From contig DAOVIP010000004.1 of the NCBI GenBank assembly GCA_030671465.1, forward strand, positions 1 through 15,330: a stretch of DNA of 15,330 bases, given 5' to 3'. The notes below the pieces were generated by a model that was given only the letters and a program-made list of their open reading frames with translations, had not been told where the DNA came from and ran no database searches. The DNA is from Candidatus Aminicenantota bacterium. Lineage in GTDB: Bacteria > Acidobacteriota > Aminicenantia > UBA2199. The position numbers and the translations under genes were made by a program. Shown piece by piece: positions 1 through 14,923 of this stretch. Numbering within the stretch: position 1 is the first letter of the stretch; each line of letters starts with the position of its first letter.

Positions 1-347
1 GCAGCATTGATCTTTTCAGCAAACTGAGCGAGATCTCCGGTATCACCCACCCCGGCATCTGCGGACAGGTTTTTGACAGTGGGCTGGGGACCGGTCCAGA
101 TAATATCATCAACCGTAAAATCATTTCCAAATATATAATCCCGGTCTTCATCAATATCGATAACCCCGTCGAAACCGGGTAGATCAAGCCCGAAATAATA
201 AAGAAAGCTGCTGTCCTGCCTGAAATGATAGGGATTGGCAGGATAGTTCATGGCACTCTCACGATTTCCCGGAAAAACAACCAAACCGGAATCCAGCTGC
301 TCTTTCAGTTTCTTTCTTCTTTCAAGGTAGATATCTTTTGCAAACAT
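1..347 (-). CDS. pepP: Xaa-Pro aminopeptidase (aminopeptidase P, M24B), N-terminal part, cut by window start
   Basis: This gene encodes the N-terminal 115 residues of an Xaa-Pro aminopeptidase, a cytosolic metallopeptidase that removes an N-terminal residue preceding proline. The product starts MFAKDIYLERRKKL. It carries hallmarks of the aminopeptidase P N-terminal domain: PGNRESAMNYPANPYHFRQD at about residues 26-45, followed by SSFLYYFGLDLPG and, further on, FGNDFTVDDIIWTGPQP. The catalytic 'pita-bread' domain with the metal ligands lies outside the window, so catalytic competence cannot be judged. The start at 347 is supported by an AAAGGAG ribosome binding site about 9 bases upstream. The gene lies 71 bases downstream of rlmH and has its own plausible promoter, so it may be transcribed both from that promoter and by read-through from the ribosome cluster. 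Family assignment is confident. The exact subtype (PepP versus PepQ) rests on the N-terminal domain alone. Confidence 0.88.
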   Translation of the reverse strand, partial: MFAKDIYLERRKKLKEQLDSGLVVFPGNRESAMNYPANPYHFRQDSSFLYYFGLDLPGFDGVIDIDEDRDYIFGNDFTVDDIIWTGPQPTVKNLSADAGVGDTGDLAQFAEKINA

Positions 348-376
348 TTTTCAATCTCCTTTTCTGATTAAACATC

Positions 377-405
377 ATCATACAAAAGAATCAATCGTAA
401 ATCAA
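377..405 (-). promoter_or_regulatory. sigma70-type promoter upstream of pepP
   Basis: On the minus strand, TTGATT (400-405) and TATGAT (377-382) are separated by exactly 17 bases. This lies in the 71-base gap between rlmH and pepP. Transcription would start near 370 and give a leader of about 23 bases containing the AAAGGAG site. The call is by consensus match only. Confidence 0.55.
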
Positions 406-418
406 TGCAGAAATTTAA

Positions 419-883
419 TCAGCGGTGATAGGTAATCCCTTTCAGAATGGTCATGGCCCGGTAGAGCTGCTCCAGAAAAACAATCCTGAAAATATCATGG
501 GAAAAGGTCATTTTGGAAAAGGATAATTTCAAATCTATATGTTCATCCAGAACCGAAGATAATCCGGAAAATCCCCCGATTAAAAAAACGATACGGCCCC
601 GGGCCCGGGTAATTTCGCGGGATAAAAATCCGGCAAACTCGGTAGAACTCATCTGCCTGCCCCTTTCATCCAGACTAATGACAAAATCATCACGTTTCAG
701 ATGTTTTTGAATCTTTACTGCCTCTTTTTCTTTAACCAGGCGTTCATCTGTTAAGCCGATATCTTTCAGCTGGGTGAGGGTAAATTTAAAAAATCCATTA
801 ATCCGCTTAACGAATTTTTGCTCAACAGGATTTAATTCCTTGAATTTAAGACCTCCGATACAGATCAGCTCAATCATTCTCAT
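419..883 (-). CDS. rlmH: 23S rRNA (pseudouridine1915-N3)-methyltransferase RlmH
   Basis: RlmH is a SPOUT-class methyltransferase that methylates N3 of pseudouridine 1915 in helix 69 of 23S rRNA, using S-adenosylmethionine on assembled 70S ribosomes. The 154-residue product has the usual family length and motifs: LDERG at 71-75 followed by QMSSTEFAGFL, the SAM-knot glycine segment FLIGGFSG at 100-107, and the C-terminal signature LSFSKMTFSH at 120-129, then LEQLYRA (137-143) and a terminal YHR. The glycine segment is commonly FVIGGADG in relatives, so FSG is a mild variation. The start overlaps the end of the sigma54-activator-like gene by 14 bases and has no Shine-Dalgarno sequence, which suggests translational coupling. 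A second ATG at 877 (starting MIELICIGG) is an equally plausible start. This is the last gene of the overlapping obg-nadD-rsfS-activator-rlmH run. Confidence 0.95.
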   Translation of the reverse strand: MRMIELICIGGLKFKELNPVEQKFVKRINGFFKFTLTQLKDIGLTDERLVKEKEAVKIQKHLKRDDFVISLDERGRQMSSTEFAGFLSREITRARGRIVFLIGGFSGLSSVLDEHIDLKLSFSKMTFSHDIFRIVFLEQLYRAMTILKGITYHR

Positions 884-1790
884 ATTTTTTCAATTTATTG
901 TACAGGGATTTTCTGGAAATCTTCAGTATATCGGCCACCCTTACCTTGCTGCGGTATTTCTTCAACAGGAATAAAATATACTTCTTCTCCATTTCAGATA
1001 GAGGCATATCGGAAATTTTCACACTCTCCAGCAAATCACCAGAATGTCGATGCAGGCTGTAAATACCTTCATCATCCAGTTTCGATCCGACCACAGACAG
1101 GTTGTGGATAAAATTTTCAATTTCCCGGATATTGCCAGTCCAGCGGTATGATTTGAGGCCTTTCATGCCTTCAGGACTGATATTGACCTGCAATCCCGCC
1201 CTTCGGGCGAAAAACAAGACCAGAGGGAGGATATCGTTCTTTCTCTCTCTCAGAGGCGGGACATGGATTTTGTAGGATGATATCCGGAAAAACAGATCCT
1301 GGCGGAATTCACCCCTCCTGACTTTATCCTCGATGTCCTCATCGGCTGAAAAAACAAATCGGGCCGGGATATCGGTTTCACGGTTTGAACCCAGAGGAAA
1401 ATATTTTTTTCTCTCGATGATCCTCAACAGCCGGGACTGCAAGTTGAGGCTCAGCAAATCGATCTGGTTTAAAAATAAGATTCCCTCCCCGGCCTGCTTC
1501 CATTTGCCTTCATAATTCCGGCTGGCCCCGGTAAAGGCGCCGCGCCTGTATCCAAACCACTCACTCTCCAGCAGGGTTTCCGGAACATCACCGCAATGTA
1601 AATTCAGGATGTTGTTGAAATGACTGAATTCAGACAGATAATAAACCCAAAAATCCTTACCCACACCGGTTTCGCCGAAAATCAGCACATTGGTGGCCAG
1701 GTCAGCGATTTTTTCAATCTTTTTTTTAACCCCCAGGGATTCCTTATCTTTTAAATTGTTAATCCCGGTAAAAATAATATCTCTTTCCAT
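870..1790 (-). CDS. sigma54-activator-like AAA+ protein with Fis-type HTH and altered Walker B
   Basis: The product (306 residues) resembles the central AAA+ domain plus DNA-binding domain of NtrC-family sigma54 activators, with no receiver or other sensory domain. Visible in order are Walker A GETGVGKD (39-46), the sigma54-contact loop GAFTGA (84-89), Walker B region GILFLNQI (103-110), arginine fingers in FRQDLFFR (R163, R169), PPLRERKNDI, sensor II GNIREIEN (219-226), and a C-terminal Fis-like helix-turn-helix (about 282-303). Most activators have Asp-Glu in Walker B; here the codons at 1464-1469 read AAC CAG, giving Asn108-Gln109. The usual ATN of sensor I is SAD (148-150). ATP hydrolysis is therefore doubtful while sigma54 contact is preserved. 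I chose the ATG at 1790, where homology begins; an ATG at 1844 would add 18 residues lying entirely inside rsfS. Even so the gene overlaps rsfS by 32 bases and rlmH by 14. Its targets are unknown. Confidence 0.85.
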   Translation of the reverse strand: MERDIIFTGINNLKDKESLGVKKKIEKIADLATNVLIFGETGVGKDFWVYYLSEFSHFNNILNLHCGDVPETLLESEWFGYRRGAFTGASRNYEGKWKQAGEGILFLNQIDLLSLNLQSRLLRIIERKKYFPLGSNRETDIPARFVFSADEDIEDKVRRGEFRQDLFFRISSYKIHVPPLRERKNDILPLVLFFARRAGLQVNISPEGMKGLKSYRWTGNIREIENFIHNLSVVGSKLDDEGIYSLHRHSGDLLESVKISDMPLSEMEKKYILFLLKKYRSKVRVADILKISRKSLYNKLKKYEND

Positions 1791-2154
1791 CCATCCATAA
1801 TTTTTCCAGAGAATACTTTTCTCTGTTTTCCGGAGAAAAAACATGAATTACAAAATCGATGTAATCCAGAAGGATCCAATCGGTATTGTTTTCCCCTTCA
1901 ACACCGAAGGCTTTCCGGTGGTATTCTTTTCTTAACTGTTTCTGGACCTCATCGGATATGGCTTTGTTCTGGCGTGATGAGTTCCCGTTGCAAATAACCA
2001 TAAAGTCAGTTATATCACTTATCCCTTTCAATTTCAACACCATGGTTTTTTCACCTTTTTTATCCAGTATAATAGAAACCACGCGTTTGATTACCGGGGG
2101 GATCTTGCGCTTTTTCAAATCCTCGGTAATAAACTTATAATCGTTAAGATCCAT
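1759..2154 (-). CDS. rsfS: Ribosomal silencing factor RsfS (Iojap/DUF143 family)
   Basis: RsfS binds ribosomal protein uL14 on the 50S subunit and blocks joining with 30S, shutting down translation during starvation or stationary phase. The 131-residue product has typical length and the conserved core: an LKGISDITDFMVICNGNSSR stretch beginning near residue 42, then KAISDEV, GEN..DWILLDYIDFVIHVF in the middle, and the C-terminal REKYSLEKLW. Its ATG at 2154 overlaps the stop of nadD by 11 bases. An AGGAG sequence lies about 10 bases upstream, a little far but usable. NadD-RsfS adjacency is a common bacterial arrangement, which supports both calls. The 3' end runs 32 bases into the activator-like gene. 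Confidence 0.95.
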   Translation of the reverse strand: MDLNDYKFITEDLKKRKIPPVIKRVVSIILDKKGEKTMVLKLKGISDITDFMVICNGNSSRQNKAISDEVQKQLRKEYHRKAFGVEGENNTDWILLDYIDFVIHVFSPENREKYSLEKLWMDGKRYYFYRD

Positions 2155-2785
2155 ACAAATTATTCTCCTCTATGAGTTTCATGACCTCCTCAGGTACCAA
2201 TTGAACAACCGGCTGGTTTAAGCGGATCTGTTTCCGAATCCGGGTTGAAGACAACTGGAGTTGTGGAGATTCATAGGCATAAATATAAACACCCGGTAAA
2301 TCAAGGGTGAATCCGGCATTGAGACAGCAGGGGATATCTTCTGCCATCAGCAAATCCTGCACTTTCTGGAGATGAGGAAGTTTCCTCAATAGTACAATAA
2401 AAAAGACCGACTGTAGAAGCTGGCGGTAGTTCTTCCAGGATTTGATTTTCAGAAAGCCCTCACTGCCCGAAATGAAGTAAAACAATTTCTCTGGATAGGC
2501 TTTTTTCAATATCTGAATGGTTTTAATGGTCCAGGACGGTCTTGATCGCTTCATTTCAACATCACAGGAAACCAACCCGGGAAATGGAACCAGGGCCCGG
2601 TCCAGCATTTTCCAACGGATTCGGGCCGGTGTGCGAACAATACTTTGCTTATGCGGCGGATTTGCCGACAGGACATACAGAATCTGTTCCAGATCAAAGG
2701 CCTCTAAAACCTTCAGACCGATTTCAATATGCCCGTTATGAACCGGATTGAATGTTCCCCCTAATAATCCAATTTTATTTTTCAT
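2144..2785 (-). CDS. nadD: Nicotinate-nucleotide adenylyltransferase NadD
   Basis: NadD transfers AMP from ATP to nicotinate mononucleotide to make deamido-NAD, a step shared by de novo and salvage NAD synthesis. The 213-residue product starts with the nucleotidyltransferase signature GGTFNPVHNGH (9-19), containing the HxGH motif (H16, H19). It has NPPHK near residue 43 and the C-terminal SSTRIR motif (about 179-184) that contacts ATP phosphates. Length matches the family. The ATG at 2785 overlaps the obg stop by 11 bases with no clear Shine-Dalgarno sequence, so translation is probably coupled. The downstream overlap with rsfS is also 11 bases. Nothing is missing from the active site as far as can be read. 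Confidence 0.96.
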   Translation of the reverse strand: MKNKIGLLGGTFNPVHNGHIEIGLKVLEAFDLEQILYVLSANPPHKQSIVRTPARIRWKMLDRALVPFPGLVSCDVEMKRSRPSWTIKTIQILKKAYPEKLFYFISGSEGFLKIKSWKNYRQLLQSVFFIVLLRKLPHLQKVQDLLMAEDIPCCLNAGFTLDLPGVYIYAYESPQLQLSSTRIRKQIRLNQPVVQLVPEEVMKLIEENNLYGS

Positions 2786-3776
2786 GAAAGTATCCGAATA
2801 TCTTTTTTTTGAGGCTATCCAGGTTAATGCCCTTCAGTGCCGAAATCTCAACATAATCGATTTTGATCTGCCTGCAAAGCTTTTTCAATTCATCGACGCT
2901 CTCTCTGCTTTTCTCAGCGATCAGGTCGATCTTATTGCCCACCACCATGAATTTTTTGGCGTTTAAACTGGTTTTATACAACTTCAGTTCATTTCGAAGG
3001 ACTTCAAATGTCTCCAGCGGTGAAGGAAATGAATCCACTGACAGGTCAATCAAGAAAACCAGCAATTTATTTCTCTCGATGTGTCTCAGAAAATCTTGTC
3101 CCATACCTTCACCCCGGTGGGCGCCTTCAATGATCCCGGGAATATCGGCCATCACCAGGCTGTTATAGCCATTATAAACCACCCCGAGATGGGGGATCAG
3201 GGTCGTAAAGGGGTAATCGGCGATTTTGGGTTTAGCAGCACTGACTTTTGAAATCAGGGTAGATTTCCCGGCATTGGGAAGCCCGACCAGTCCGGCAAAG
3301 GCAATCAATTTCAATTCCAGGATCACCTTTATGGTTTCTCCCTTGCCGCCGGGTTCGGCGATCCGGGGGGTTTGATGGCGTGCAGACTTGAAATGGGTAT
3401 TCCCCCGCCCCCCCTTACCACCACGGGCCACTTCCCATTCAATGGCTTCCCGGTCAAAATCAAATATCAATTTTTCATCCGGATAGGTTTTGACCACTGT
3501 GCCGGCCGGGATAGTCAGGATTTCATTTTGACCATTTTTCCCACTCTTTTTTGCTCCGCTCCCATGTCTGCCTTTGGGAGATCTGACAATATTCCGAAAT
3601 TTAAAATCCACCAGCGAATGTTTTCCCGATTTGCTGATCAAAATGATACTGCCGCCATCTCCGCCGTCACCTCCATCGGGTCCACCTTTGGGGACAAATT
3701 TTTCCCGGCGGAAACTGATACACCCATTGCCGCCATCACCGGCTATAAAGGTTACTACTGCCCTGTCAACAAACAT
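2775..3776 (-). CDS. obg: GTPase ObgE/CgtA
   Basis: Obg is an essential GTPase that acts in late 50S subunit assembly and stress signalling. The 333-residue product has the glycine-rich Obg domain (about 1-157, beginning MFVDRAVVTF and including KGGPDGGDGGDGG), then a TRAFAC-type G domain. Its G motifs are G1 GLPNAGKS (165-172), the G2 region YPFTTL (188-193), G3 DIPG (211-214), G4 NKID (281-284) and G5 SALKG (312-316). It ends right after the G domain, so it lacks both the acidic tail of gammaproteobacterial Obg and the OCT domain of many Gram-positive forms. The ATG at 3776 has only an AT-rich, weak ribosome binding site. A 118-base gap separates it from rpmA upstream. The order rplU-rpmA-obg is widely conserved in bacteria, so co-transcription is likely. 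Confidence 0.97.
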   Translation of the reverse strand: MFVDRAVVTFIAGDGGNGCISFRREKFVPKGGPDGGDGGDGGSIILISKSGKHSLVDFKFRNIVRSPKGRHGSGAKKSGKNGQNEILTIPAGTVVKTYPDEKLIFDFDREAIEWEVARGGKGGRGNTHFKSARHQTPRIAEPGGKGETIKVILELKLIAFAGLVGLPNAGKSTLISKVSAAKPKIADYPFTTLIPHLGVVYNGYNSLVMADIPGIIEGAHRGEGMGQDFLRHIERNKLLVFLIDLSVDSFPSPLETFEVLRNELKLYKTSLNAKKFMVVGNKIDLIAEKSRESVDELKKLCRQIKIDYVEISALKGINLDSLKKKIFGYFHEK

Positions 3777-3844
3777 TAATTAAAATTTACCGATAGCCCT
3801 GAAGAAAACGGCTTCTTTATATTCAAGGAATTCAGTTATTGATA

Positions 3845-3859
3845 GCTTCGGACCGAAGC
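3845..3859. repeat. 15-base perfect inverted repeat between rpmA and obg
   Basis: GCTTCGG and CCGAAGC flank a single central base, so the transcript could form a hairpin of 5 to 6 base pairs. It lies in the 118-base non-coding gap downstream of rpmA. No T-run follows it on the minus strand, so it is not a standard intrinsic terminator. It may be an RNA processing or attenuation element, or a protein-binding site. Confidence 0.45.
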
Positions 3860-3894
3860 GGGAATGAGAGGAAACTGGCTTGAAAAACAAAAAA

Positions 3895-4146
3895 CTATTT
3901 GGGTTCAATCTCCACAAACCGTTTGTTTTTGCGGTGTAAAAATCTGACATTACCCGGAATCAGGGCAAAGAGCGTCTTGTCCTTTCCCATGCCCACATTT
4001 TTGCCCGGATTAAATTTGGTTCCCCGCTGTCTGAGAATGATCGCACCGGCACTAATCTGTTCGCCTCCATACTTCTTTACCCCCAATCGCTTGGAGATAC
4101 TATCGCGTCCATTTCGAGCACTTCCGGCTGATTTTTTGTGTGCCAT
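3895..4146 (-). CDS. rpmA: Large ribosomal subunit protein bL27
   Basis: bL27 is a 50S protein whose N-terminal tail reaches the peptidyl-transferase centre. The 83-residue product is near the usual length of about 85 and starts [16 protein letters not shown], then [11 protein letters not shown], with [15 protein letters not shown] in the centre. The N-terminus is the mature form and carries no Firmicutes-type cleavable extension. Start and stop are tightly linked to rplU: the sequence TAATG contains both the rplU stop and the rpmA start, a one-base overlap. The ribosome binding site (AAAGGAG) is formed by the last lysine and glutamate codons of the rplU tail. Confidence 0.98.
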
Positions 4147-4646
4147 TATTTCTTCTCCTTTCCTTTAGCGGCAGGCGGCTTTTTCGTGGGTGCGGTTTTT
4201 TTCGGGGCCGGTGAGACAGATTTTTTGGCCGCGGGCCGAGATTTAGAAGGTTTTGCAGTACCGGTTTTGGCCCTGGTTTTGATCTCAGGTTTCGGTGCCG
4301 CTGTCGTTTCTTTCGGCCCGGTGGACTTGCCAATCTCAATTTTTTCTATTTTTAAGCGGTGCAGCATCTGCCGGTGACCCTGGGTCCGCTTGTATCCCTT
4401 TTTTGATTTTTTCTTGAAAATGATGACCTTGGGCGATTTAAATGCTTCCAGAATCCTGGCCTCTATATTGCCGTTTTCTACATAAGGCTGTCCCAGATGC
4501 AGATCGTTATCCCTGATCAGCAGTACTTCCTTAAAGTTGACCTGGTTCTCCTTGGATATCATATTTTCATCAATATGTTCCACTTCGATGATATCGCCTT
4601 CTTCAACTTTGTACTGTTTTCCGCCTGTTTCGAGAATTGCAAACAT
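4146..4646 (-). CDS. rplU: Large ribosomal subunit protein bL21 with long basic C-terminal tail
   Basis: bL21 binds 23S rRNA early in 50S assembly. Residues 1-106 are a normal bL21: [18 protein letters not shown], then FKEVLLIRD and the rRNA-binding [16 protein letters not shown] before KIEKIEIG. The usual protein stops near residue 103. Here about 60 further residues follow (107-166), made almost only of Lys, Ala, Pro, Thr and Ser, as in histone H1-like tails. The tail is in frame with no internal stop and carries the rpmA ribosome binding site, so it is not a simple frameshift artefact. The ATG at 4646 has a GGAG site about 9 bases upstream. This is the first gene of the cluster, directly behind a near-consensus promoter. 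Confidence 0.96.
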
Positions 4647-4675
4647 TTTTATTACTCCAACTAAAAATCTTCTTT

Positions 4676-4704
4676 TTTATAACACAAAACCGAGGATAAG
4701 TCAA
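4676..4704 (-). promoter_or_regulatory. sigma70-type promoter of the rplU-rpmA(-obg) cluster
   Basis: On the minus strand, TTGACT (4699-4704) and TATAAA (4676-4681) are separated by 17 bases. It lies in the 84-base gap between the beta-propeller stop and rplU. The predicted start is near 4669, giving a leader of only about 23 bases, too short for a structured ribosomal-protein leader. Confidence 0.72.
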
Positions 4705-4730
4705 TATCCGGATTCGTCTTTAACCGAACC

Positions 4731-7079
4731 CTACCCCGGGCAGACCACGGATTTTGGTTTTATGATAAAAAGTTTGCCGGAAAGAAAATCGCTGATCCAC
4801 AAACAGCCCTGGGTGTCCTGTAAGATCCGATTGATCCTGAACAGACCATCTCCAAATTGCCCCCTCACAAAAAAGGCCGTGTTATTGGTGTCAAAACTGG
4901 TTTCACCATAGGGATACCGCTCTTCATGGATTAAATGAAAGGTCCGGTTCTGAACCGAAAATGAGTGGATTTGCAATCGATCGGAACTGTGGGAAGTGAG
5001 GATCAGCTCTTTGCCGGAATCAAACAGGCCATCCGGCCTTCCCGGCCCCGGCAGGGGATACTTGACTGAATCCCCACCCGGAAACTGCAGGGTCCTTTCC
5101 TGGTGATTGATCACCACCAATTCATCCCCCCGGTAAATCAAATCCAGTGGTTTTTCTCCGGTTTCCAGCCGGGTGATGCTGAAATCAGCTTTATTTACCA
5201 CTGTAATGCTGTTGCTATCAAAATTACTGACCGCAATCCGTTCACGGTTGAAAGCAAGACCAACCGGAGTCAATCCCACCGGGCATCTGAACAAAACCTT
5301 CCGGCTATTCAGATCCAAGATTTGCAGGACGCCGGCTTCATCATCCCTCTCACCTACCCTCACCATATACAGCCAGTGGTGATCGGAATCATATTTCAAT
5401 ATTCTCTGGGTGGTTTCCCGGACAACCGTTTCATCCAGTTCCCAGCGCATATCTCCCTGGTTGGGACTTCTAATGGCATCGGGAAGGGAAATGACAAACT
5501 GTTTTTCCCGGCCCCAGTTGTTCTGAAGGGCATACAAAACCCCTGATCTGTCCACTGTTATCTGTTGGGCCATCCTGGGGATCCGGCGGTCGTAGAATTC
5601 AAAGGTCTCCGGGTGGACACCCAGAATCCCATTCTTGGCCCCCCAGATATAAACCACCGGCCAGTAAGCTTGATGGGGACCGTAGGCCAGACAGATATAG
5701 CCATCCGGCAGGGTAACGGCCCGGCCGGGATAATCGCAGGGAAGCCTTAAATATCGGGAGCTCCCATCCGGCTGTACTTCAGCAACAGAATCCTCGGAGT
5801 TAAAGACCAGAACGCCAGCCCGGTTTTTCAGGGCCACTGAATCCACCGGCGCCCAGCCGGTATACACTTTCCTGGTTTTAAAGCTCCGGGTATCCAGGAA
5901 GGTGACAGCAGATCCGAAAGAACCGTTTACCGCTGTGGCCCCAATGGGAATATATAAGTTTTGGTTGACCGGATTAAAACTCATGCTGAACATATGGGGA
6001 ATAATACCCAGATTCCGTATTCTTTTGGTTAATTTTCTCTGGCCCAGATCCAGCACATTGATTTCTCCATAGGCCCAGCTGGATACAAACAACTTCTGGT
6101 TATCCAAATCAATGGCAGAGGCATCATTGCCATAGGCCGGCATTTTGATCTCACTGACCTTTCCTCCCTGCTGGAAAGAAACCACGTGAACACTGGGATG
6201 ATTGTCATAGGGAATATAAACTTCATCCGTACGGGAGTTATAGTTGATTCCCACCGCTTCACTGAATTCGGGCAGGGTTACAGCCAGATCCCGGCCCCGG
6301 CGAATATCTATCTTGACTGCTTCAACCACTTTTCTTTTATCCGTTTCGATGACCAGATACAGACAATGGTTGTTTTGATTGTATGCCGCAAAATGCCAGC
6401 GGGCCCCTGGCTTTACCTTCAGTTTTCTCTCCTTTAAAATCCTCCCGGAAGGGGAGAAAACAAACAGCCTGGCACTGAATCCGTCAACCGCCACCCAGCT
6501 ATTCGATTTCCGGTCCCAGACCACCTTGCGAATGGGAGGTGGAGGGGTCTGATTCAGGTTCACCATGGTTTCCCGGTGAGATAGCCAGGCAAGAGTCCTG
6601 ATTTTTCCTGTTTGAAGCGACACCAAGACCAGGTTACGGCTGGATCTTCCTACCAGACAGGCATCTCCGCTGGCCTCATTGATGGCAACCATTTCAAACT
6701 GGTCATTGGTGGGGATGGTGATTGCCTTTTTCTTCTCCGGGATCACCACATGAAGGCAGCGGTTTCCAATCAGGTATATATGGCCGGTGGCAGAATCTAT
6801 TTGCAGTGCCTCATCTTTCAAATACTGGGGGATGCGGCTCCGGATGGGGATATTCAGTACCGAATGATCCCGGCCGTCAATCAAGGAGACAGAAGAGGTA
6901 TAGGTATGGGCCACAATGATTCTGTTTCTGATCGGATCTGACTTGACCAGCAGAGGGCCGGCCCCATTCACCTCAAGTCGGTATTCTGACAGGAAATCCA
7001 CCCGGGTAACTTCATAATCGGCCCCCAGAAAAACGCCTGTCATAATGGTGATCAAAAAAACGGATAATCGGATTCTCAT
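4731..7079 (-). CDS. Exported beta-propeller (YVTN-like repeat) protein of unknown function
   Basis: The product (782 residues from this start) begins with a typical signal peptide, MRIRLSVFLITIMTGVFLGA, probably cleaved after A20. It has no lipobox and no later membrane segment, so it is likely periplasmic or secreted. The rest is built of about 40-residue beta repeats of YVTN/propeller type. Examples are DPIRNRIIVAHTYTSSVSLI near residue 48, FNPVNQNLYIPIG in the middle, and FNRERIAVSNFDSNSITVV near the C-terminus. The size suggests two propellers. No catalytic motif was recognised. The ATG at 7079 has AGGAGG 4 bases upstream; an in-frame ATG at 7127 would put 16 extra residues before the signal peptide and is less likely. 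It follows the 416-residue membrane protein after 82 bases and is probably co-transcribed. Its role could be ligand binding or scaffolding, but this cannot be assigned. Confidence 0.8.
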   Translation of the reverse strand: MRIRLSVFLITIMTGVFLGADYEVTRVDFLSEYRLEVNGAGPLLVKSDPIRNRIIVAHTYTSSVSLIDGRDHSVLNIPIRSRIPQYLKDEALQIDSATGHIYLIGNRCLHVVIPEKKKAITIPTNDQFEMVAINEASGDACLVGRSSRNLVLVSLQTGKIRTLAWLSHRETMVNLNQTPPPPIRKVVWDRKSNSWVAVDGFSARLFVFSPSGRILKERKLKVKPGARWHFAAYNQNNHCLYLVIETDKRKVVEAVKIDIRRGRDLAVTLPEFSEAVGINYNSRTDEVYIPYDNHPSVHVVSFQQGGKVSEIKMPAYGNDASAIDLDNQKLFVSSWAYGEINVLDLGQRKLTKRIRNLGIIPHMFSMSFNPVNQNLYIPIGATAVNGSFGSAVTFLDTRSFKTRKVYTGWAPVDSVALKNRAGVLVFNSEDSVAEVQPDGSSRYLRLPCDYPGRAVTLPDGYICLAYGPHQAYWPVVYIWGAKNGILGVHPETFEFYDRRIPRMAQQITVDRSGVLYALQNNWGREKQFVISLPDAIRSPNQGDMRWELDETVVRETTQRILKYDSDHHWLYMVRVGERDDEAGVLQILDLNSRKVLFRCPVGLTPVGLAFNRERIAVSNFDSNSITVVNKADFSITRLETGEKPLDLIYRGDELVVINHQERTLQFPGGDSVKYPLPGPGRPDGLFDSGKELILTSHSSDRLQIHSFSVQNRTFHLIHEERYPYGETSFDTNNTAFFVRGQFGDGLFRINRILQDTQGCLWISDFLSGKLFIIKPKSVVCPG

Positions 7080-7161
7080 ATTGCCTCCTGCACTGATAAA
7101 AGTACCACAATCCATCACCCAATTCAATTGCTTTACAAGCCTGCGGGATTCCCCCGGTTGA

Positions 7162-8412
7162 CTATTTGACCGGAACCTGTTTTTTTAAAAAACCTCCGAA
7201 ATTCAAAAGCCCTGTTTTAAAAGATCCGGGATCATTGAAGCGGGAAGTAAAATCAACACTCAGGAAATACTGCTGAACCTCCAGCAAACGCTGATGGATT
7301 AACCGCCCCAGAAATCCGGACTGATCGGTAAAATCATGCCGATCCAAGAGGATAATGAATTGGGACTTTCCCGGCGCATAATAAATGGTTTGGATCTGAA
7401 TGTTTTTGACCGGGTCTTCATCGGAGAGCTGAAAATCGATCAGCTCGATATCCCCGGAATCTGATTTTTTCAAATCCCTGATCCATTTATTGTTCTTCGT
7501 GTTTTGAAAATCCGGGAATACCAGATATTTCTGGCGCAGAAAAACATAGGTATTCATTTTCAAATTGGCGTAGTTTCCATGATCATCGGGATTTAAATAA
7601 TCTTCCTCGGTCCAGCTTATCCGGTAGATCTGGGGATCCCGGGAAAAACCCAAATAGTTACCGATTTGGTCGATCAATTTTCCCGGGGATAAATCCCGGA
7701 TATCACCGATCCTCTCCTTTAAGAAAGCCGCCACATCGGTAGCAGGAAAAACATCCAGCCGCTGAAGCAGCATATAAAAATAAAACAAAACCGGTAGCGA
7801 TTGAAAATCCTTCTCGATCTCATTGTTGATCTGCAGGTAAGGCCAGCAATTGACGATTCTCTTGAACATGGTATCCGGAAACTCAGTGATCTCCCGAATG
7901 AGCTTTCCTTCCCTGATTTTAAGCATGAAGAGGCCAGTATACAAATTGAATATCAGGGTTTGGTCAGCACCTTCCGGGAAATCAAATTCAAATATATCCT
8001 TGAGGTCATAAAAATTAATCCGCTGTACTTTTTGGATGACCTCAAACAGTGGCAACAGGTCCTGGTCCGTATCGGTTTGATCCTCTGCCGGAAAAAGAAC
8101 TGATTTCAAACCATCTATCGGGAAATTCTGAAAGGGCCGGGGGGATTGTTTCAGGAAATCCAGGATACCCTCCAGTTCAGTTTCAATTCTTTCATTGAAC
8201 CCGGCAAAAACACCTCTGGTGATTTGGGGAATATCCGAGATATTGACCGGTTTCTTTTTTTTATTCTCAGGCGGTTTGGTTCCGGTTTCGACCGGTTTGG
8301 GGCTCTTATTGCCCAGGGGGACAAACAGGTAAACCAGAAAGAGGATAAAGATAATCCCCATGGTGATCAACAGGAAAGTATCCCTCCGCTCTTTACTTTT
8401 CAGCATTTTCAT
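7162..8412 (-). CDS. Membrane-anchored protein of unknown function (416 residues)
   Basis: I do not recognise a family. The product has a short basic N-terminus (MKMLKSKERRD), one hydrophobic segment at about residues 14-33, then a Lys/Pro-rich linker (about 35-56). A soluble region of about 360 residues rich in aromatic and acidic residues follows. The positive-inside pattern predicts a cytoplasmic N-terminus with the bulk in the periplasm. The C-terminal half contains alternating beta-like stretches such as LIDFQLSDE and KSQFIILLDRHDF. The start at 8412 (or the ATG two codons later, 8406) has no Shine-Dalgarno sequence, and a TATAAT box ends 11 bases upstream, so the mRNA leader would be only a few bases. 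It is followed by the exported beta-propeller gene; the pair may work together at the cell envelope, which is inference from position only. Confidence 0.72.
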   Translation of the reverse strand: MKMLKSKERRDTFLLITMGIIFILFLVYLFVPLGNKSPKPVETGTKPPENKKKKPVNISDIPQITRGVFAGFNERIETELEGILDFLKQSPRPFQNFPIDGLKSVLFPAEDQTDTDQDLLPLFEVIQKVQRINFYDLKDIFEFDFPEGADQTLIFNLYTGLFMLKIREGKLIREITEFPDTMFKRIVNCWPYLQINNEIEKDFQSLPVLFYFYMLLQRLDVFPATDVAAFLKERIGDIRDLSPGKLIDQIGNYLGFSRDPQIYRISWTEEDYLNPDDHGNYANLKMNTYVFLRQKYLVFPDFQNTKNNKWIRDLKKSDSGDIELIDFQLSDEDPVKNIQIQTIYYAPGKSQFIILLDRHDFTDQSGFLGRLIHQRLLEVQQYFLSVDFTSRFNDPGSFKTGLLNFGGFLKKQVPVK

Positions 8413-8423
8413 GATTCATACAG

Positions 8424-8452
8424 ATTATAATACATTCACAGGAAATCTTCAA
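8424..8452 (-). promoter_or_regulatory. sigma70-type promoter of the 416-residue membrane protein gene
   Basis: On the minus strand, TTGAAG (8447-8452) and a perfect TATAAT (8424-8429) are separated by 17 bases. Transcription would start near 8417, only about 5 bases before the ATG at 8412. That leaves no room for a ribosome binding site, so the transcript would be near-leaderless. Confidence 0.55.
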
Positions 8453-8471
8453 AAAAAATGTACAAAAACAC

Positions 8472-8484
8472 TGTCAATTTGACA
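8472..8484. repeat. 13-base palindrome overlapping the glycosyltransferase -35 box
   Basis: TGTCAA and TTGACA flank one central T, a perfect inverted repeat in the divergent intergenic region. Its right half is the -35 box of the glycosyltransferase promoter. The symmetry may mark an operator, or may only be a second, unused -35 sequence pointing the other way. Confidence 0.45.
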
Positions 8485-8507
8485 ATGTAACCGTATTCAG
8501 GTATGTT
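8479..8507 (+). promoter_or_regulatory. sigma70-type promoter of the glycosyltransferase gene
   Basis: A consensus TTGACA (8479-8484) is followed after 17 bases by TATGTT (8502-8507). Six bases then lead to the ATG at 8514, so the expected transcription start coincides with the start codon and the mRNA would be leaderless. Confidence 0.65.
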
Positions 8508-8513
8508 TTTGAA

Positions 8514-9263
8514 ATGAAGATTTCTGTTGTAATCATCACCCTGAATGAGGAAGACCGGCTGGAAGATGCCCTGAAGAGTGTCGCGGAAATTGCGGATGAA
8601 ATCGTGATGCTGGACTCGTATTCAACCGATAACACCCTGGAAATTGCCCGCCGCTACAATTGTGAAATCTACCAGAACCCGTTTACCGATTATGGCACCC
8701 AGAAGAATCTGGCTCTTGACAAAGCCAAATATCCCTGGGTACTGAACCTGGATGCCGATGAACGCATATCGGAATCATTGAAACAGGAAATCCTGAAATT
8801 AAAGATGCAGCAGGAAATACCGGTTGACGGCTTCCTGATTAACCGCAAGACCTATTACCTGGGAAAATGGATCAGGCATTCCGGCTGGTACCCGGACCGG
8901 AAATTAAGGCTGTTCCGCAAATCCAAGAGCAGGTGGAAGGGAAGGGTACATGAAGGCCTGATGCTGGATGGTCAGGCACGGGGTATCGGGGGAGATATTA
9001 TCCATTTCACCTACCGAAACCTGGATGATCACCTGCAACGCATCAACCGCTATTCCCGCCTGCAGGCCCAGGATATTGCCCGGTCAAAAAAATGTCTCTA
9101 TTTGAGGGCTGTATTGCTGCCACCCATTACCTTTCTCAGGTTTTATGTCTGGAAGATGGGAATACTTGACGGTTTCCCGGGCCTGGTCATTGCCCTGGTC
9201 TCATCCTGGGGAACCGCTCTGAAATACCTCAAGGCCATTGAAATAAAAAAAACCGAAAGTTGA
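8514..9263 (+). CDS. Glycosyltransferase family 2, LPS-core WaaE/KdtX-like
   Basis: The product (249 residues) is a GT-A fold glycosyltransferase resembling the WaaE/KdtX group, which adds glucose to the inner core of lipopolysaccharide at the cytoplasmic face of the inner membrane. It begins MKISVVIITLNEEDRLEDAL, the exact family start. It continues with DSYSTDNT (34-41), the nucleotide-binding region, and NLDADERIS (78-86) with the metal-binding DAD. The WYPDRKLRLFRK and GRVHEGL motifs are also present. The length of about 250 residues is typical. The sugar and acceptor cannot be told from sequence. No Shine-Dalgarno sequence precedes the ATG, and the promoter position implies a leaderless mRNA. 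The gene stands alone on the plus strand, convergent with pdxA after 24 bases. Confidence 0.88.
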   Translation: MKISVVIITLNEEDRLEDALKSVAEIADEIVMLDSYSTDNTLEIARRYNCEIYQNPFTDYGTQKNLALDKAKYPWVLNLDADERISESLKQEILKLKMQQEIPVDGFLINRKTYYLGKWIRHSGWYPDRKLRLFRKSKSRWKGRVHEGLMLDGQARGIGGDIIHFTYRNLDDHLQRINRYSRLQAQDIARSKKCLYLRAVLLPPITFLRFYVWKMGILDGFPGLVIALVSSWGTALKYLKAIEIKKTES

Positions 9264-9270
9264 AGGTCGG
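9245..9270 (-). terminator. possible weak intrinsic terminator after pdxA
   Basis: On the minus strand, CCGA and TCGG (9267-9270 and 9253-9256) can pair around a 10-base loop and are followed directly by eight T residues (9245-9252). The stem is only four pairs, so this is a weak candidate. It overlaps the end of the convergent glycosyltransferase gene. Confidence 0.3.
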
Positions 9271-9287
9271 GCAAAAATAGGATTCGA

Positions 9288-10211
9288 TTATTTTCTGGCG
9301 ATCAGATGATCAGCCAGTTTCACGGCTTCAATCATGCTGGCTGGATCCGCGATTCCCTGGCCAGCGATATCAAAGGCAGTCCCATGATCGGGTGAAGTTC
9401 GAACAAAGGGCAATCCCAGAGTCAGGTTGACACCGGCCCGTTCCCGGGATAATTTAAAGGGGATCAACCCCTGATCATGATACCAGCAGACCACCACCGA
9501 ATCCTTGGCCCGGAGAGCAGTTGGAAATACCGTATCTGGCGGATATATACCGGCAATATTCATTTCCCCCTCCAGTTTGCTCAGGGCCGGCTTGATGATT
9601 TCCTCCTCCTCGGTCCCGAGATGTCCCTGCTCGCCGGCATGGGGATTTAACCCGCTGATGAAAAAATTAAATTTTTTTCCAAACAGTCGCCTTAGCTCCT
9701 GATCCAGGAAACGCATGAAATCAATGATCCTTTGCTTTTTAATATGCGGGAATATGTCTTTCAGTGAAATATGAAGGGTAAACAGTGAAACCTTTAAATC
9801 TTCAGACCAGAAAAACATCCCGTATTGTTTGATGCCCGATCGGTGGGCCAGATATCCGGTATGACCCCGGAACGGGATGCCCCGTTCCATCCATTTCTGC
9901 TTTGATATGGGGGCCGTGACCACGGCCTGAACCTTTCCGGTCAGGGCCAGGTCAACCGCTTTTCGGACATAGGCAAAGGATTCGTCGGTTTTGTCATCCG
10001 GGTTTTCTAGGGGATAAAAAAAAATCCCTTTTTCCAGTTTTTCTATTCGAGAAATAACCCGGATTTCAGGATCGGGGGAGCAACCATGGCTACCGATGAT
10101 GACCACCGGGTGTTTCGGATGATACCGGGAAAAGGTCTTTTCAATGATTTCCGGCCCTACACCGGTCGGCTCTCCCAGGGTAACGGCAATGATCTTTTTC
10201 AATCTATGCAA
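9288..10211 (-). CDS. pdxA: 4-hydroxythreonine-4-phosphate dehydrogenase PdxA
   Basis: PdxA oxidises 4-phosphohydroxy-L-threonine with NAD(P) in DXP-dependent pyridoxal phosphate synthesis. The 307-residue product shows GEPTGVGPEI (13-22), TAPISK (99-104), GHTGYLA (116-122), the three metal-binding histidines H147, H191 (in GLNPHAGE) and H245 (in WYHDQG), and DHGTAFDIAGQG (275-286). It is slightly shorter than the usual 320-330. The start is unusual: no ATG precedes the first motif, so initiation must use TTG at 10211 or 10202. No Shine-Dalgarno sequence is visible. The preceding Hfq-like gene is in the same frame and ends with TAA only two codons before the TTG, so translation probably depends on termination-reinitiation. 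PdxA relatives outside B6 synthesis exist (PdxA2/DUF1537-linked), but nothing here points to those. Confidence 0.94.
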   Translation of the reverse strand: MHRLKKIIAVTLGEPTGVGPEIIEKTFSRYHPKHPVVIIGSHGCSPDPEIRVISRIEKLEKGIFFYPLENPDDKTDESFAYVRKAVDLALTGKVQAVVTAPISKQKWMERGIPFRGHTGYLAHRSGIKQYGMFFWSEDLKVSLFTLHISLKDIFPHIKKQRIIDFMRFLDQELRRLFGKKFNFFISGLNPHAGEQGHLGTEEEEIIKPALSKLEGEMNIAGIYPPDTVFPTALRAKDSVVVCWYHDQGLIPFKLSRERAGVNLTLGLPFVRTSPDHGTAFDIAGQGIADPASMIEAVKLADHLIARK

Positions 10212-10217
10212 AGATAA

Positions 10218-10541
10218 TTAGGACGGTTTGTCCTTTGAAACTTCTTCTTCCTGGAAGTTGGGATCCTTGTACATATACTTGATTACCTGTTTGAAGATGA
10301 TGAAATTGTTCTCATCCGCTCTCTTTATTTTAAGGCAATTCTTATCATACCACTCGATTCGGCCTTTAAACACCTCACCATTGATTAATTCGATCACCAT
10401 GGGGGTTTTGTTGTTCATCTGCTTGATATAATAATAATTTTCGGCATGGGTTTTATAGGGGGGAGGTGGCTTTTTCCGGGTATCCTTTTTAGAAATCTTC
10501 TTTATTTCAATTAGGTCCGGTTTTATCAATTTGCGGGTCAT
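10218..10541 (-). CDS. hfq: Hfq-like (Sm-fold) RNA chaperone, divergent, with basic N-terminal extension
   Basis: The product (107 residues) contains an Sm fold of Hfq type. Hfq hexamers bind small RNAs and mRNAs and promote their pairing. Sm1 is at about 46-74: TPMVIELINGEVFKGRIEWY matches the Hfq pattern PV.I.L.NG..L.G.IE..D. Sm2 is at about 79-92 (NFIIFKQVIKYMYK). The canonical YKH of Sm2 is FKQ (83-85). Before the Sm fold lies a 45-residue, Lys- and Pro-rich extension (starting MTRKLIKPDL, with RKKPPPP) ending in ENYYYIKQMNNK, absent from proteobacterial Hfq. The start at 10541 is preceded by GGAGGAG with good spacing; an ATG six codons upstream lies at about the predicted transcription start and has no such site. 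The gene is 6 bases from pdxA. Whether it does classical sRNA pairing is open. Confidence 0.75.
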   Translation of the reverse strand: MTRKLIKPDLIEIKKISKKDTRKKPPPPYKTHAENYYYIKQMNNKTPMVIELINGEVFKGRIEWYDKNCLKIKRADENNFIIFKQVIKYMYKDPNFQEEEVSKDKPS

Positions 10542-10564
10542 GATTTCTCCTCCAGACATTTTTT

Positions 10565-10593
10565 ATCTTAAACCAATTTTCATCAAAAGTCAA
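10565..10593 (-). promoter_or_regulatory. sigma70-type promoter of hfq-like/pdxA
   Basis: On the minus strand, TTGACT (10588-10593) and TAAGAT (10565-10570) are 17 bases apart. The predicted start near 10558 gives a leader of about 17 bases containing GGAGGAG. This supports 10541 as the start codon. Confidence 0.65.
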
Positions 10594-10594
10594 C

Positions 10595-10609
10595 CGGATC
10601 CGGGATCCG
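10595..10609. repeat. 15-base inverted repeat upstream of the hfq-like promoter
   Basis: CGGATCC and GGATCCG flank one base and touch the upstream edge of the -35 box of the hfq-like promoter. It lies between the glmU-like stop and that promoter. It could be an operator or part of a transcript end for the upstream operon; no T-run follows it. Confidence 0.4.
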
Positions 10610-10637
10610 CACTCCTGACAAATATAGACATGGATAT

Positions 10638-11732
10638 TTACAGTTTTGGTTTTTTTTTCCGCTGGTGTTTAACCCAATCCGTTTTGGTTAACTGGACCTC
10701 TCTGGCAATGGCCAGCGAATCGGGGGGGACATCCTCGGTAATGGTCGAACCGGCTGCTATCAGACTGTTTTTACCAATTTTCAGGGGGGCAATCAGCTCG
10801 GTACCGGAACCGATGAAAACACGATCTTCAATGGTGGTGGTATGTTTCTTTTGGCCATCGTAATTGCAGATAATGGTTCCGGCCCCGATATTGACCTGCT
10901 CTCCGATGGAGGCATCACCCAGGTAGGACAGATGCATGGCCTTGGCTCCTTTTCCCAGGGTGGTTTTTTTGATCTCAACAAAATTTCCAGCTTTGCCCCC
11001 GCGCCTGATGACGGCCTGGTTTCTTAAATGGGTGTAGGGTCCCACCTGAACATCGTCCTCCAAAATCGAATCCCGTAGCACACAATGAGGCAACACCGTA
11101 CAATTGTGACCGATGGCGGTGTTCTCAATATAAGAATGGGCATCGAGACTTACATTCCTTCCCAGGCGGCTGTTCCCTTTGACCACCACACCCGATCCGA
11201 TGCGGGAACCGCTTCCGATGGATACCCTGCCTTCCAGATAAAAATGACGGTAATCATCGATATGGATGTTCTTTTTCAATAGTTGTTGAATTTGAAAGCG
11301 GGTGATACATTCTTCAACCTGGCCTGGATTCTGGATCAGATCGCATACCTGGTAAGGGTTCTTCAATCCGGCCAGCTTAATTTCCGCTTTTTCCGATAAA
11401 ACCGAGCAGACTCCTTTTCTTATCCGGATCCGGTGTCTGCGAATCGCCTCCCTGCTAAGAATGAAAAGCGGAAAGCCGGAAAGCGAAACAATATCTGCTG
11501 ATAGTCTCTGAGATTTGAACAATCTCTTGAGTTCGGCAATTCCTGCAGGTTCGATGTCCAGAAATCTGGTAAAATCAAAAACAACCAGAACCTCATAATC
11601 CGGGTTCAGCTGTTCCGGATGATGAAAGTCGATGCCTTTGAACCGGCGGCCCATCCAGAAAAACAGGTCTTCACCCCGGAAACGCATAACAGAGACCGGT
11701 AAGGCTCCGGGATCAAAGGTGGCAACAATCAT
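10638..11732 (-). CDS. GlmU-like left-handed beta-helix acetyltransferase without recognisable pyrophosphorylase domain
   Basis: Residues from about 165 to 350 match the GlmU C-terminal domain, which acetylates glucosamine-1-phosphate with acetyl-CoA on the way to UDP-GlcNAc. The hexapeptide repeats run through GPYTHLRNQAVI (R237), GKAGNFVEIKK (246-256), MHLSYLGDASIG (H267), NIGAGTIICNYDG (281-293) and DVPPDSLAIAR. The residues I know as acetyltransferase active-site positions all appear kept. The first 130 or so residues do not show the GxGTRM signature or other uridylyltransferase motifs and are about 90 residues shorter than in bifunctional GlmU (about 455 residues). The N-terminal region may be a collapsed nucleotidyltransferase domain or something unrelated. 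The start overlaps the TPR gene by four bases (ATGA). The call as acetyltransferase is firm; the sugar substrate is inferred from GlmU. Confidence 0.85.
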   Translation of the reverse strand: MIVATFDPGALPVSVMRFRGEDLFFWMGRRFKGIDFHHPEQLNPDYEVLVVFDFTRFLDIEPAGIAELKRLFKSQRLSADIVSLSGFPLFILSREAIRRHRIRIRKGVCSVLSEKAEIKLAGLKNPYQVCDLIQNPGQVEECITRFQIQQLLKKNIHIDDYRHFYLEGRVSIGSGSRIGSGVVVKGNSRLGRNVSLDAHSYIENTAIGHNCTVLPHCVLRDSILEDDVQVGPYTHLRNQAVIRRGGKAGNFVEIKKTTLGKGAKAMHLSYLGDASIGEQVNIGAGTIICNYDGQKKHTTTIEDRVFIGSGTELIAPLKIGKNSLIAAGSTITEDVPPDSLAIAREVQLTKTDWVKHQRKKKPKL

Positions 11733-12244
11733 TCTATCATGGATAAGAACTCACTGTTTTCAGATAAGGGTTCAAAATCGGGCTCGTTATGGGCAATAAT
11801 TTTATAGTAATCATCCTTGGCAATACTTTTTTCCAAATACTTCAACGCCTTCTCTTCATCATCCTGTTTCATATAAACCAGCGAGAGTAAATAATATATA
11901 TATGGATCCGAGTATTTTCTCTTCTCCGATAGCTCCAGAAAATGTTGAAGGGCCTGATCCAGTTGGCCGGCATTCAGATTATACAGACCTTCATTCAGAA
12001 AGTCCTCATCGGTTTTCAGGACAATTTTTTGAGGATGCAATCGGGAATCGGCCAGATTCTTATATAATTTTGACTGGGTTTGAATTTCCAGCACACTATC
12101 ATATTCGGAATCTTTATAATTCTCAATGATCTCCTTCAACAGATCCAGGGCACTCTTGAAATTCTTTTTGTGAAAAGCCTGCAGGGCCTTATCAAATTCC
12201 AAGCTTATTTTTTTAAGCTCTTTCTCTTCCATACTCAATACCAT
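11729..12244 (-). CDS. TPR (tetratricopeptide) repeat protein
   Basis: The 171-residue product has TPR-type helix pairs. One is near the N-terminus (residues 14-38, FDKALQAFHKKNFKSALDLL). A tandem pair starts at about 90 (NEGLYNLNAGQLDQALQHF, then YIYYLLSLVYMKQDDEEKAL). It ends with NEPDFEPLSENSEF, a capping sequence often seen after the last TPR. No signal peptide or membrane segment is visible, so it is probably a cytosolic adaptor of unknown partner. The start at 12244 has AGGAGGT 9 bases upstream; an in-frame ATG at 12304 without such a site is unlikely. The stop overlaps the GlmU-like gene by four bases, so the two are co-translated, but no functional link is established. Confidence 0.82.
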   Translation of the reverse strand: MVLSMEEKELKKISLEFDKALQAFHKKNFKSALDLLKEIIENYKDSEYDSVLEIQTQSKLYKNLADSRLHPQKIVLKTDEDFLNEGLYNLNAGQLDQALQHFLELSEKRKYSDPYIYYLLSLVYMKQDDEEKALKYLEKSIAKDDYYKIIAHNEPDFEPLSENSEFLSMIE

Positions 12245-12460
12245 TTTGATATTACCTCCTGATCCTGAAAGTGATGAACCGACTCTCCCGGGCCTGCGTT
12301 TCATTATTCCTGAGTATCATGATACCAAATCGTGTGAAATTCATTTCTCTTTGCACCAGCTTTTATTTTACACTGTTTTGGTATTGATTTCAACTTTTCC
12401 AGCCCAGAGGGCGGGCGAAAATGGAGAGTTTGGAAAAAATGTTGAAACGGCCGGTGTTGG
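12245..12460. other. 216-base intergenic region between exbD and the TPR gene
   Basis: It holds a promoter for the TPR gene and about 110 bases of 5' leader. The leader contains a perfect 12-base palindrome, GTATCATGATAC (12314-12325), and ends in the AGGAGGT site. No convincing small gene and no clear terminator for exbD was found. Confidence 0.5.
12365..12393 (-). promoter_or_regulatory. sigma70-type promoter of TPR/glmU-like genes
   Basis: On the minus strand, TTGAAA (12388-12393) and TAAAAT (12365-12370) are separated by 17 bases. Transcription would begin near 12358. Confidence 0.55.
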
Positions 12461-12871
12461 TTACTCTGGAATGGTACTATATCTCTCAAGCATGACACCG
12501 ATAACTTCAATACCGGCACCCTTGGCAATGTCAATGACTCTCAACACATCTTTATAGGAAGCCGATTCATCGGCACGAATAAAGATTTTTCTGTCGGTTT
12601 TAGTCTGATAAATGTTTCTCAATTCATTTTCCAGTAAATCGATTGTGGTGGGAATCTGGTTGATTTTTACGGAGAGATCCTGTTCGAGGGTTAACACAAT
12701 TCCACTGGAAGGACCGCCCTGGTCTCCAACCATCTCGGGTAGATTAATGTCAATTCCCTTCTGAGCAACCGGAGTAATCACCATGAAAATGATTAATAAA
12801 ACCAGCAAGATATCACACAACGGAACCACATTCGGTTCAGATTTTTGTTCAATACCTACTTCCGCACCCAT
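12461..12871 (-). CDS. exbD: ExbD/TolR family biopolymer transport protein
   Basis: ExbD/TolR proteins form the peptidoglycan-binding rotor or stator partner of ExbB/TolQ proton channels that energise TonB or the Tol system. The 136-residue product has a cytoplasmic N-terminus and a single membrane helix, PLCDILLVLLIIFMVITP (17-34), with the proton-carrying aspartate D20. The conserved QKGIDINLP follows, then the periplasmic domain ending DKIF-like (RKIFIRADESASYKDVLRVI) and GIEVIGVMLE. Length is typical. The ATG at 12871 has AGGAGG four bases upstream. No exbB/tolQ or tonB is adjacent in this window, which is unusual since exbB normally precedes exbD. The gene faces away from tetR across a 125-base divergent promoter region. 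Confidence 0.93.
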   Translation of the reverse strand: MGAEVGIEQKSEPNVVPLCDILLVLLIIFMVITPVAQKGIDINLPEMVGDQGGPSSGIVLTLEQDLSVKINQIPTTIDLLENELRNIYQTKTDRKIFIRADESASYKDVLRVIDIAKGAGIEVIGVMLERYSTIPE

Positions 12872-12889
12872 TTATCCTCCTAGTGGTTT

Positions 12890-12918
12890 AATTTATCAAA
12901 AATGAAATAAATTGTCAA
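12890..12918 (-). promoter_or_regulatory. sigma70-type promoter of exbD
   Basis: On the minus strand, a consensus TTGACA (12913-12918) and TAAATT (12890-12895) are 17 bases apart. It lies back to back with the tetR promoter, with a shared A7T7 tract between the two -35 boxes. Confidence 0.62.
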
Positions 12919-12920
12919 GG

Positions 12921-12934
12921 AAAAAAATTTTTTT
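12921..12934. promoter_or_regulatory. A7T7 tract between divergent promoters
   Basis: Seven A residues are followed by seven T residues, flanked symmetrically by TTGTCAA (12912-12918) and TTGACAA (12936-12942). Such tracts bend DNA and can act as UP elements for RNA polymerase alpha subunits; here one could serve both promoters. Confidence 0.4.
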
Positions 12935-12935
12935 A

Positions 12936-12964
12936 TTGACAAAAACGGAATTTCATTTTATATT
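12936..12964 (+). promoter_or_regulatory. sigma70-type promoter of tetR-tolC-adaptor operon
   Basis: TTGACA (12936-12941) and TATATT (12959-12964) are 17 bases apart. The predicted start is at about 12971, inside the first operator palindrome, so repressor binding would block this promoter. Confidence 0.72.
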
Positions 12965-14915: not shown

Positions 14916-14923
14916 GAGGATCA

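Follow-up and report, generated by a model that had tools for sequence, protein, structure and literature searches.

Can a sigma54 activator lose the catalytic acid of its ATPase site and still be retained as a regulator? Bacterial enhancer-binding proteins (bEBPs) are the textbook case of ATP-hydrolysis-driven transcription, and this question is raised by a 15,330-nucleotide stretch from a Candidatus Aminicenantota bacterium (assembly GCA_030671465.1, contig DAOVIP010000004.1, positions 1 to 15,330; hereafter the window), in which positions 870-1790 of the minus strand code for a 306-residue, sigma54-activator-like AAA+ protein, here called X. An earlier note on this DNA had read Asn-Gln (AAC CAG) in X in place of the Walker B Asp-Glu and SAD in place of the sensor I ATN, next to intact Walker A, GAFTGA, arginine fingers, sensor II and Fis-type helix-turn-helix (HTH), and all of these readings were borne out on the minus strand, with the Walker B change lying within GILFLNQI and sensor I reading FSAD. 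Indeed, X has the domains of a bEBP, the Pfam scan returning Sigma54_activat (150.8 bits), AAA_lid_14 (44 bits) and HTH_8 (31.5 bits), all over their cut-offs, and fold matches agree, the top Foldseek match being 3m0e, an ATP-bound Walker B mutant of NtrC1. It carries the GAFTGA L1 loop, both arginine fingers and the sensor II Arg, and departs from bEBPs at Walker B (NQ for DE) and at sensor I (Ala-Asp for Thr-Asn, the latter present in 100 of 126 control bEBPs). What appears to be new here is a bEBP family linked to rsfS in which many copies lack the Walker B Glu, together with the acid that stands at position 111 when position 109 has none.

The change is not peculiar to one genome. Close orthologues with Asp-Glu, which would have pointed to a strain-specific mutation or an error, were not found: position 109 is acidic in none of the closest proteins (the best 120 of 5291 matches, to which all counts for relatives refer; Q 113, R 5, K 1, G 1) and in none of the 32 loci of the window's own family (f1 in the anonymous family codes used here; Q 24, G 3, N 2, R 2, H 1). 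Asn occupies position 108 in 111 of the same relatives and Asp in the other 9, and position 150 of sensor I is D in 102. X is under purifying selection, with a pairwise ratio of nonsynonymous to synonymous divergence (omega) of 0.08-0.29 in 11 of the 12 pairs with an estimable synonymous divergence, within the range of its housekeeping neighbours, and no internal stop occurs in the X matches listed. A sequencing error, a strain-specific mutation or a pseudogene is ruled out by the missing acid in 32/32 f1 loci and 120/120 proteins and by these omega values, and its probability is negligible. A trapped Glu-to-Gln change is not what is conserved, however. Aligning the orthologues confirmed that no acid stands at 109, but R, G, H, N and K are found there besides Gln, so that a specific conservation of Gln was rejected; what is strictly maintained is the lack of an acid.

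A search of 34 f1 genomes, the window's own included, found X in 32. Neither of the other two (G017 and G033) gave a match to rlmH, which usually adjoins X, and this points to assembly gaps. Two f1 loci (L149 and L151) are partial; L165, which stops at a contig end without a Walker B, was excluded from site counts, and L234, with a run of N, was excluded from both trees and kept in site counts. The source assembly itself comprises 2.41 Mb in 521 contigs and is 88% complete. Several close relatives of X are labelled Candidatus Aminicenantes, including contig L056 (66% identical), and a few carry the labels Acidobacteriota, Candidatus Deferrimicrobium, Desulfobacteraceae or Candidatus Kapabacteria; the relatives with such odd labels are presumably misplaced metagenome bins. 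In the window copy, the glutamate-switch Asn is replaced by His (NLHC), while most of the 120 relatives have Asn.

Gene order and trees argue that the copies of X are orthologues, linked to rsfS and in most cases adjoining rlmH. The order obgE-nadD-rsfS-X occurs in 30/30 f1 loci and rlmH adjoins X in 25/30, one of these with a 133-nt gap; the firm linkage is to rsfS, the ribosomal silencing factor gene. Within the class, an X-like gene between rsfS and rlmH is also present in families f2 (three full copies, a fourth being truncated by a contig end with rsfS out of view), f3 (one) and f5 (seven); for f4 and f7-f12, none of the 24 loci that show rsfS has X at this place (three further loci were uninformative and f6 was outside the survey). 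In other parts of the phylum, 69 loci were inspected, of which 29 were returned by the search and 40 were chosen for spread of families rather than drawn at random, and 22 of them have X upstream of rlmH. Outside the phylum, a small sample of 36 genomes gave 20 with an rlmH match and ten loci with rsfS in view upstream, none with X in between; in one locus (L320), a bEBP lies downstream on the opposite strand.

The loss of the Walker B Glu extends beyond this one protein, the gene at the corresponding syntenic place being without it in several lineages of Acidobacteriota. All 43 scored class copies (32 f1, 3 f2, 1 f3, 7 f5) are without it, with SS in f2, DL in f3 and DL or DM in f5. Among the 22 copies outside the class, 13 read DE, and the others SG (f14), DG (f16, two copies; f32, f49 and f62), AG (f40), DR (f43) and DD (one of the two f60 copies). 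A search with an f16 copy returned eight close short proteins, the query included, which all read D-G-[VI]-[DE], and the next 112 bEBPs listed, nine of them under 380 residues, all read DE; on these sequences, f16 is a second lineage with a fixed loss of the Glu, the synteny of f16-type proteins being known for two f16 loci only.

These features were compared with 126 non-X bEBPs (9 from the same genome, 40 from the class and 77 from many phyla), of which 124 are distinct (L059/L273 and L096/L103 are duplicate pairs); the window itself (L009) and L011-L014, which the profile did not match at E 1e-8, were excluded. The 77 were collected with X-derived patterns, one holding the arginine fingers and none the Walker B, so that the presence of arginine fingers in 126/126 controls is partly due to selection. 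Their Walker B reads DE in 125 cases and DD in one; the latter, L003 (C303, same genome as the window), reads GTIFLDDVDDI with Asp at 111 and SK at sensor I. Arg-Lys at 293-294 in the recognition helix is found in 61/65 syntenic X versus 6/126 controls, and in 8/8 f16-type proteins versus 4/112 of the further bEBPs. Regarding phylogeny, 17 of the 32 f1 loci and 30 controls entered a tree of the AAA+ domain alone, and 8 and 6, respectively, a tree with the HTH. In the former, X is scattered among bEBPs with three label changes, but a tree constraining X together was 13 log units better (p-AU, of the approximately unbiased test, 0.65). In the latter, calculated with the Walker B columns removed, 40/40 X rows fall on one side of a branch supported at 100/96, with the six bEBPs as outgroup, and the class copies join at 88/85. 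The acid at 109 undergoes five changes (losses or regains) on this tree, of which one may plausibly be placed on the branch leading to the class copies, and the class-wide lack of Glu would most simply reflect a loss in their common ancestor.

The absence of Glu109 goes together with an acid two residues further. The change noticed in the earlier note is fixed and under selection; however, Asp111, found in 120/120 relatives, replaces the usual Gly, so that hydrolysis may have been relocated and not lost. Position 111 in the controls is G in 99, S in 14, A in 11, and D and E in one each. Among X loci with a non-acidic 109, Asp or Glu stands at 111 in 49/51 (the exceptions are L173, with Gln and a Glu next to it, and L249, with Asn), versus 1/14 X loci with an acidic 109, 2/126 controls and 0/112 further bEBPs; counted by family code, the proportions are 10/11 and 1/9. 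One serious, if unlikely, alternative to a loss of catalysis is therefore that the acid at 111 activates water in place of Glu109, as in a NACHT-like extended Walker B (D-x-h-[DE]), X being a real, perhaps slow, nucleoside triphosphatase (NTPase). The supported branches of the tree with the HTH offer four independent pairs, of which 3.2 on average change in the same direction, none in the opposite one and 0.8 show no difference; the sign test was not significant (median p 0.25; p 0.5 for the two pairs of the AAA+-only tree). The covariation is hence strong by count, unproven on the tree and, taken together, suggestive. A relocated acid is argued against by the window's lineage, in which the Mg-ligand Asp is mostly Asn and sensor I is altered, and by f2 and f5, which retain the acid at 111 (9/10 copies) despite having lost the arginine fingers. 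Classical AAA+ proteins often carry Asp at this place (DEID) without it being necessarily catalytic, which also weighs against a relocated acid.

A precedent is provided by the NLR proteins, for whose extended Walker B, hhhhD[GAS]hDE, acids starting three residues past the first Asp are proposed, in the part of the study that bears on this motif, to take over, NALP12 being reported there as ATP-hydrolysing (PMC2323615). Copies of X likewise combine a loss of the Walker B Glu with an acid three residues past the first Asp, and f16, f49 and f62, which read D-G-x-[DE], fit D-G-h-[DE]. The likeness of the window protein is partial: it reads FLNQIDLL, agreeing at the +3 acid alone, with Gln instead of a tiny residue and a first Asp that is mostly Asn in f1. 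No NACHT family matched X in the Pfam scan at E 0.001.

Conserved without its key catalytic residue, X probably works by holding ATP or via a shifted active site. The reading that we prefer, with a probability of roughly 45%, is that X is an ATP-gated, slow or non-hydrolysing, sigma54-related switch bound to DNA. X would be a ring-forming regulator derived from a sigma54 activator, for which ATP is mainly a bound ligand and not a fuel, because the Mg-binding residue, the catalytic acid and sensor I have all been changed while the nucleotide and subunit contacts are kept. Bound between subunits, ATP would stabilise the hexamer, hydrolysis being absent or very slow, and the ATP-bound ring would hold or pre-remodel the sigma54-RNA polymerase through GAFTGA at the sites of its Fis-type HTH, like the E108Q variant of PspF. 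According to the sections of the PspF study concerned with it, this variant has <1% ATPase activity, a 30-fold higher ATP affinity and a constitutive hexamer, and with ATP it fully activates from pre-opened promoter DNA in a GAFTGA-dependent manner, with an optimum at ~100-fold less ATP; on duplex DNA, E108 variants are defective at ordinary ATP, E108Q being active at low ATP (PMC4132715). Hence the earlier claim that X binds sigma54 without remodelling does not follow from its Walker B. Reported Vmax values per minute are 0.23 for PspF D107A and 0.07 for E108Q, versus 39.5 (PMC3419264, in the portion giving the kinetics). Moreover, a cryo-electron microscopy study ties, in the part relevant here, ATP hydrolysis to threading of the sigma54 N-terminus and to DNA melting (PMC12054792), so that X should engage the polymerase but melt DNA poorly. 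Its output would then follow the ATP level and promoter melting. X is devoid of a sensor domain and presumably shares a sigma70-type promoter with obgE, nadD, rsfS and rlmH, so that it may couple a sigma54-related response to the growth and energy state of the cell.

Several observations weigh against this reading. Asn108 would weaken Mg binding too, and nucleotide binding by X itself is thus something we infer. The acid at 111 may restore catalysis, and since it resembles the NACHT extended Walker B, Glu-to-Gln is by itself no proof of a dead enzyme. The arginine fingers are lost in the X of f2, f3 and f5 and the L1 loop is GAFSDA in 5/7 f5 copies, so that contact with sigma54 may not be a requirement across the whole family. 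In G260, an X-bearing genome that is 90% complete, there is no sign of rpoN. Finally, in the regions upstream of rplU from the window and 19 loci, there is no convincing sigma54 site (two stray loose matches) and no conserved operator dyad is evident, and because of the latter we make no claim of autoregulation.

The variability of the L1 loop across the family (GAFTDA, GAFSDA, GTFTDA, GVATGV) and the lost arginine fingers would also be expected if X bound DNA at sigma70 promoters like VpsR or R. capsulatus NtrC, with GAFTGA as a relic. Such action at sigma70 promoters, independent of hydrolysis, is described for natural bEBPs in the part of PMC10274813 devoted to them, and R. capsulatus NtrC, Caulobacter NtrC and VpsR are, like X, natural bEBPs off the standard mechanism. 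However, as described there, they have lost GAFTGA, the hallmark absence of unconventional sigma70 bEBPs, whereas X keeps it and has an altered Walker B (PMC10274813). For one GAFTDA protein, a pull-down did not recover sigma54, as far as the passage on this experiment states (PMC10714721), but GAFTDA also occurs in 12 of our 126 control bEBPs and is no proof of loss. In the relatives, the Phe of GAFTGA is invariant (120/120) and the Thr is found in 117. In addition, rpoN, whose presence the earlier note had proposed to check, is found in the window's genome (one match, E 2.0e-50) and accompanies X in 39/40 X-bearing genomes. A regulator independent of sigma54 is hence rather improbable.

The invariance of both arginine fingers and Asp165, though the own site of X is altered, could be explained if X co-assembled with other bEBPs in the same cell and poisoned or tuned their hexamers, its fingers serving the neighbour's site. 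Such partners would be available, the genome having, besides X, eight strong Sigma54_activat matches, a further match at a contig end and four weak matches, and linked PspF dimers alternating wild-type and E108 variants are reported, in the section on such dimers, to retain partial function (PMC4132715). Nevertheless, sister families have lost the arginine fingers, and X is 34-43% identical to non-orthologous bEBPs among the matches listed, so that co-assembly is not obvious; we give little credence to such an antagonist.

The features of the window discussed here are as follows.

Table 1. Positions of gene X, its motifs and neighbouring features in the window.
Feature	Positions	Strand	Remarks
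Gene X, coding sequence	870..1790	-	Coding 873-1790, stop 870-872; AAA+ bEBP-like, without N-terminal regulatory domain
Walker A GETGVGKD, residues 39-46	1653..1676	-	Lys45 in 119/120 relatives
L1 loop GAFTGA, residues 84-89	1524..1541	-	F86 in 120/120, T87 in 117, G88 in 116 relatives
Asn108-Gln109, replacing Walker B Asp-Glu	1464..1469	-	Plus strand ctggtt, AAC CAG on minus
Asp111, where ordinary bEBPs carry Gly/Ser/Ala	1458..1460	-	120/120 relatives, 32/32 f1 loci
Sensor I SAD (FSAD), residues 148-150, replacing ATN	1341..1349	-	Sequence and relatives
Arginine fingers Arg163 and Arg169, with Asp165 (FRQDLFFR)	1284..1304	-	120/120 each
Sensor II Arg222 (GNIRE)	1125..1127	-	120/120 relatives
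Fis-type HTH, recognition helix with Arg293-Lys294	882..1001	-	HTH_8, E 1.5e-07
rsfS	1759..2154	-	Pfam RsfS; overlaps X by 32 nt
rlmH	419..883	-	Pfam SPOUT_MTase; overlaps end of X
nadD-like nucleotidyltransferase gene	2144..2785	-	Pfam CTP_transf_like; presumed operon
obgE	2775..3776	-	Pfam GTP1_OBG; presumed operon
Sigma70-type promoter-like TTGACT-17-TATAAA	4676..4704	-	Upstream of rplU, start of presumed operon

The overlap of X with rsfS recurs in 28/30 f1 loci, with starts estimated from alignments. In the five f1 loci without an adjoining rlmH (L020, L021, L022, L024 and L026), rlmH matches lie on other contigs of the respective genomes (G005, G021, G008, G018 and G014), the contig of L026 stopping 127 bases past X, so that adjacency is not judgeable there. 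These five genomes belong to the large-genome genera of f1, in which X stays with rsfS and rlmH is elsewhere. Within rlmH, window positions 581-790 are 95-96% identical to the same-genus locus L016 (genome G001), compared with 49-87% for the other operon blocks, and the G001 contig ends at this stretch; this looks like recombination or a chimeric contig in the window or in G001, and X is unaffected.

From the gene order, we infer that the sigma70-type promoter upstream of rplU drives X. The pattern was found in all 20 family regions with rplU (the window and 19 loci, one of the 20 regions fetched besides the window giving no rplU match), and 70 of 4000 mononucleotide-shuffled regions match it by chance. 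When sigma54 promoters were sought on the operon, a loose pattern matched twice within the window, each time on the plus strand, and a stricter pattern not at all. Directly upstream of rplU, positions 4731-7127 of the minus strand encode a 798-residue protein without Pfam match at E 0.001. Further along the same strand are a 113-residue Hfq-like protein with an N-terminal extension, adjoining pdxA (10218-10559; Pfam Hfq_1 E 3.6e-11, Hfq below cut-off), and a 364-residue protein with GlmU-like C-terminal hexapeptide repeats, whose N-terminal part has no assignment (10638-11732).

How does X compare with known systems? From the PspF-type activators, which are bEBPs without a regulatory domain, it differs by its Asn-Gln Walker B, its sensor I (AD, not TN), its acid at 111 and its fixed place beside rsfS. 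With PspF E108Q it shares the Gln at the catalytic position, but PspF E108Q and the NtrC1 mutant are laboratory variants, while X occurs in nature, is without the Mg-ligand Asp as well and has Asp111, other family members having G, S, L, M or R. No prior description of the X family was found among the titles and abstract beginnings listed from the open-licence literature. Taken at its widest, a view that we regard as possible, if on the doubtful side, is that a single rsfS-linked bEBP family of Acidobacteriota repeatedly remodelled its Walker B from DE-x-G to a nucleotide switch that is NACHT-like, D-[G]-x-[DE], or that reads N-Q-x-D in Aminicenantes, the ATP state gating a DNA-bound ring by binding or by slow shifted-acid turnover and thereby coupling ribosome silencing to gene control. 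The X family, in which the catalytic Glu was discarded, apparently several times, and the rest kept in this lineage, is a natural version of the PspF E108Q experiment. It allows one to ask directly if a sigma54-type regulator can, in nature, do with the binding of ATP only, or if the catalytic acid is able to shift its place, as has been proposed for the NACHT NTPases.
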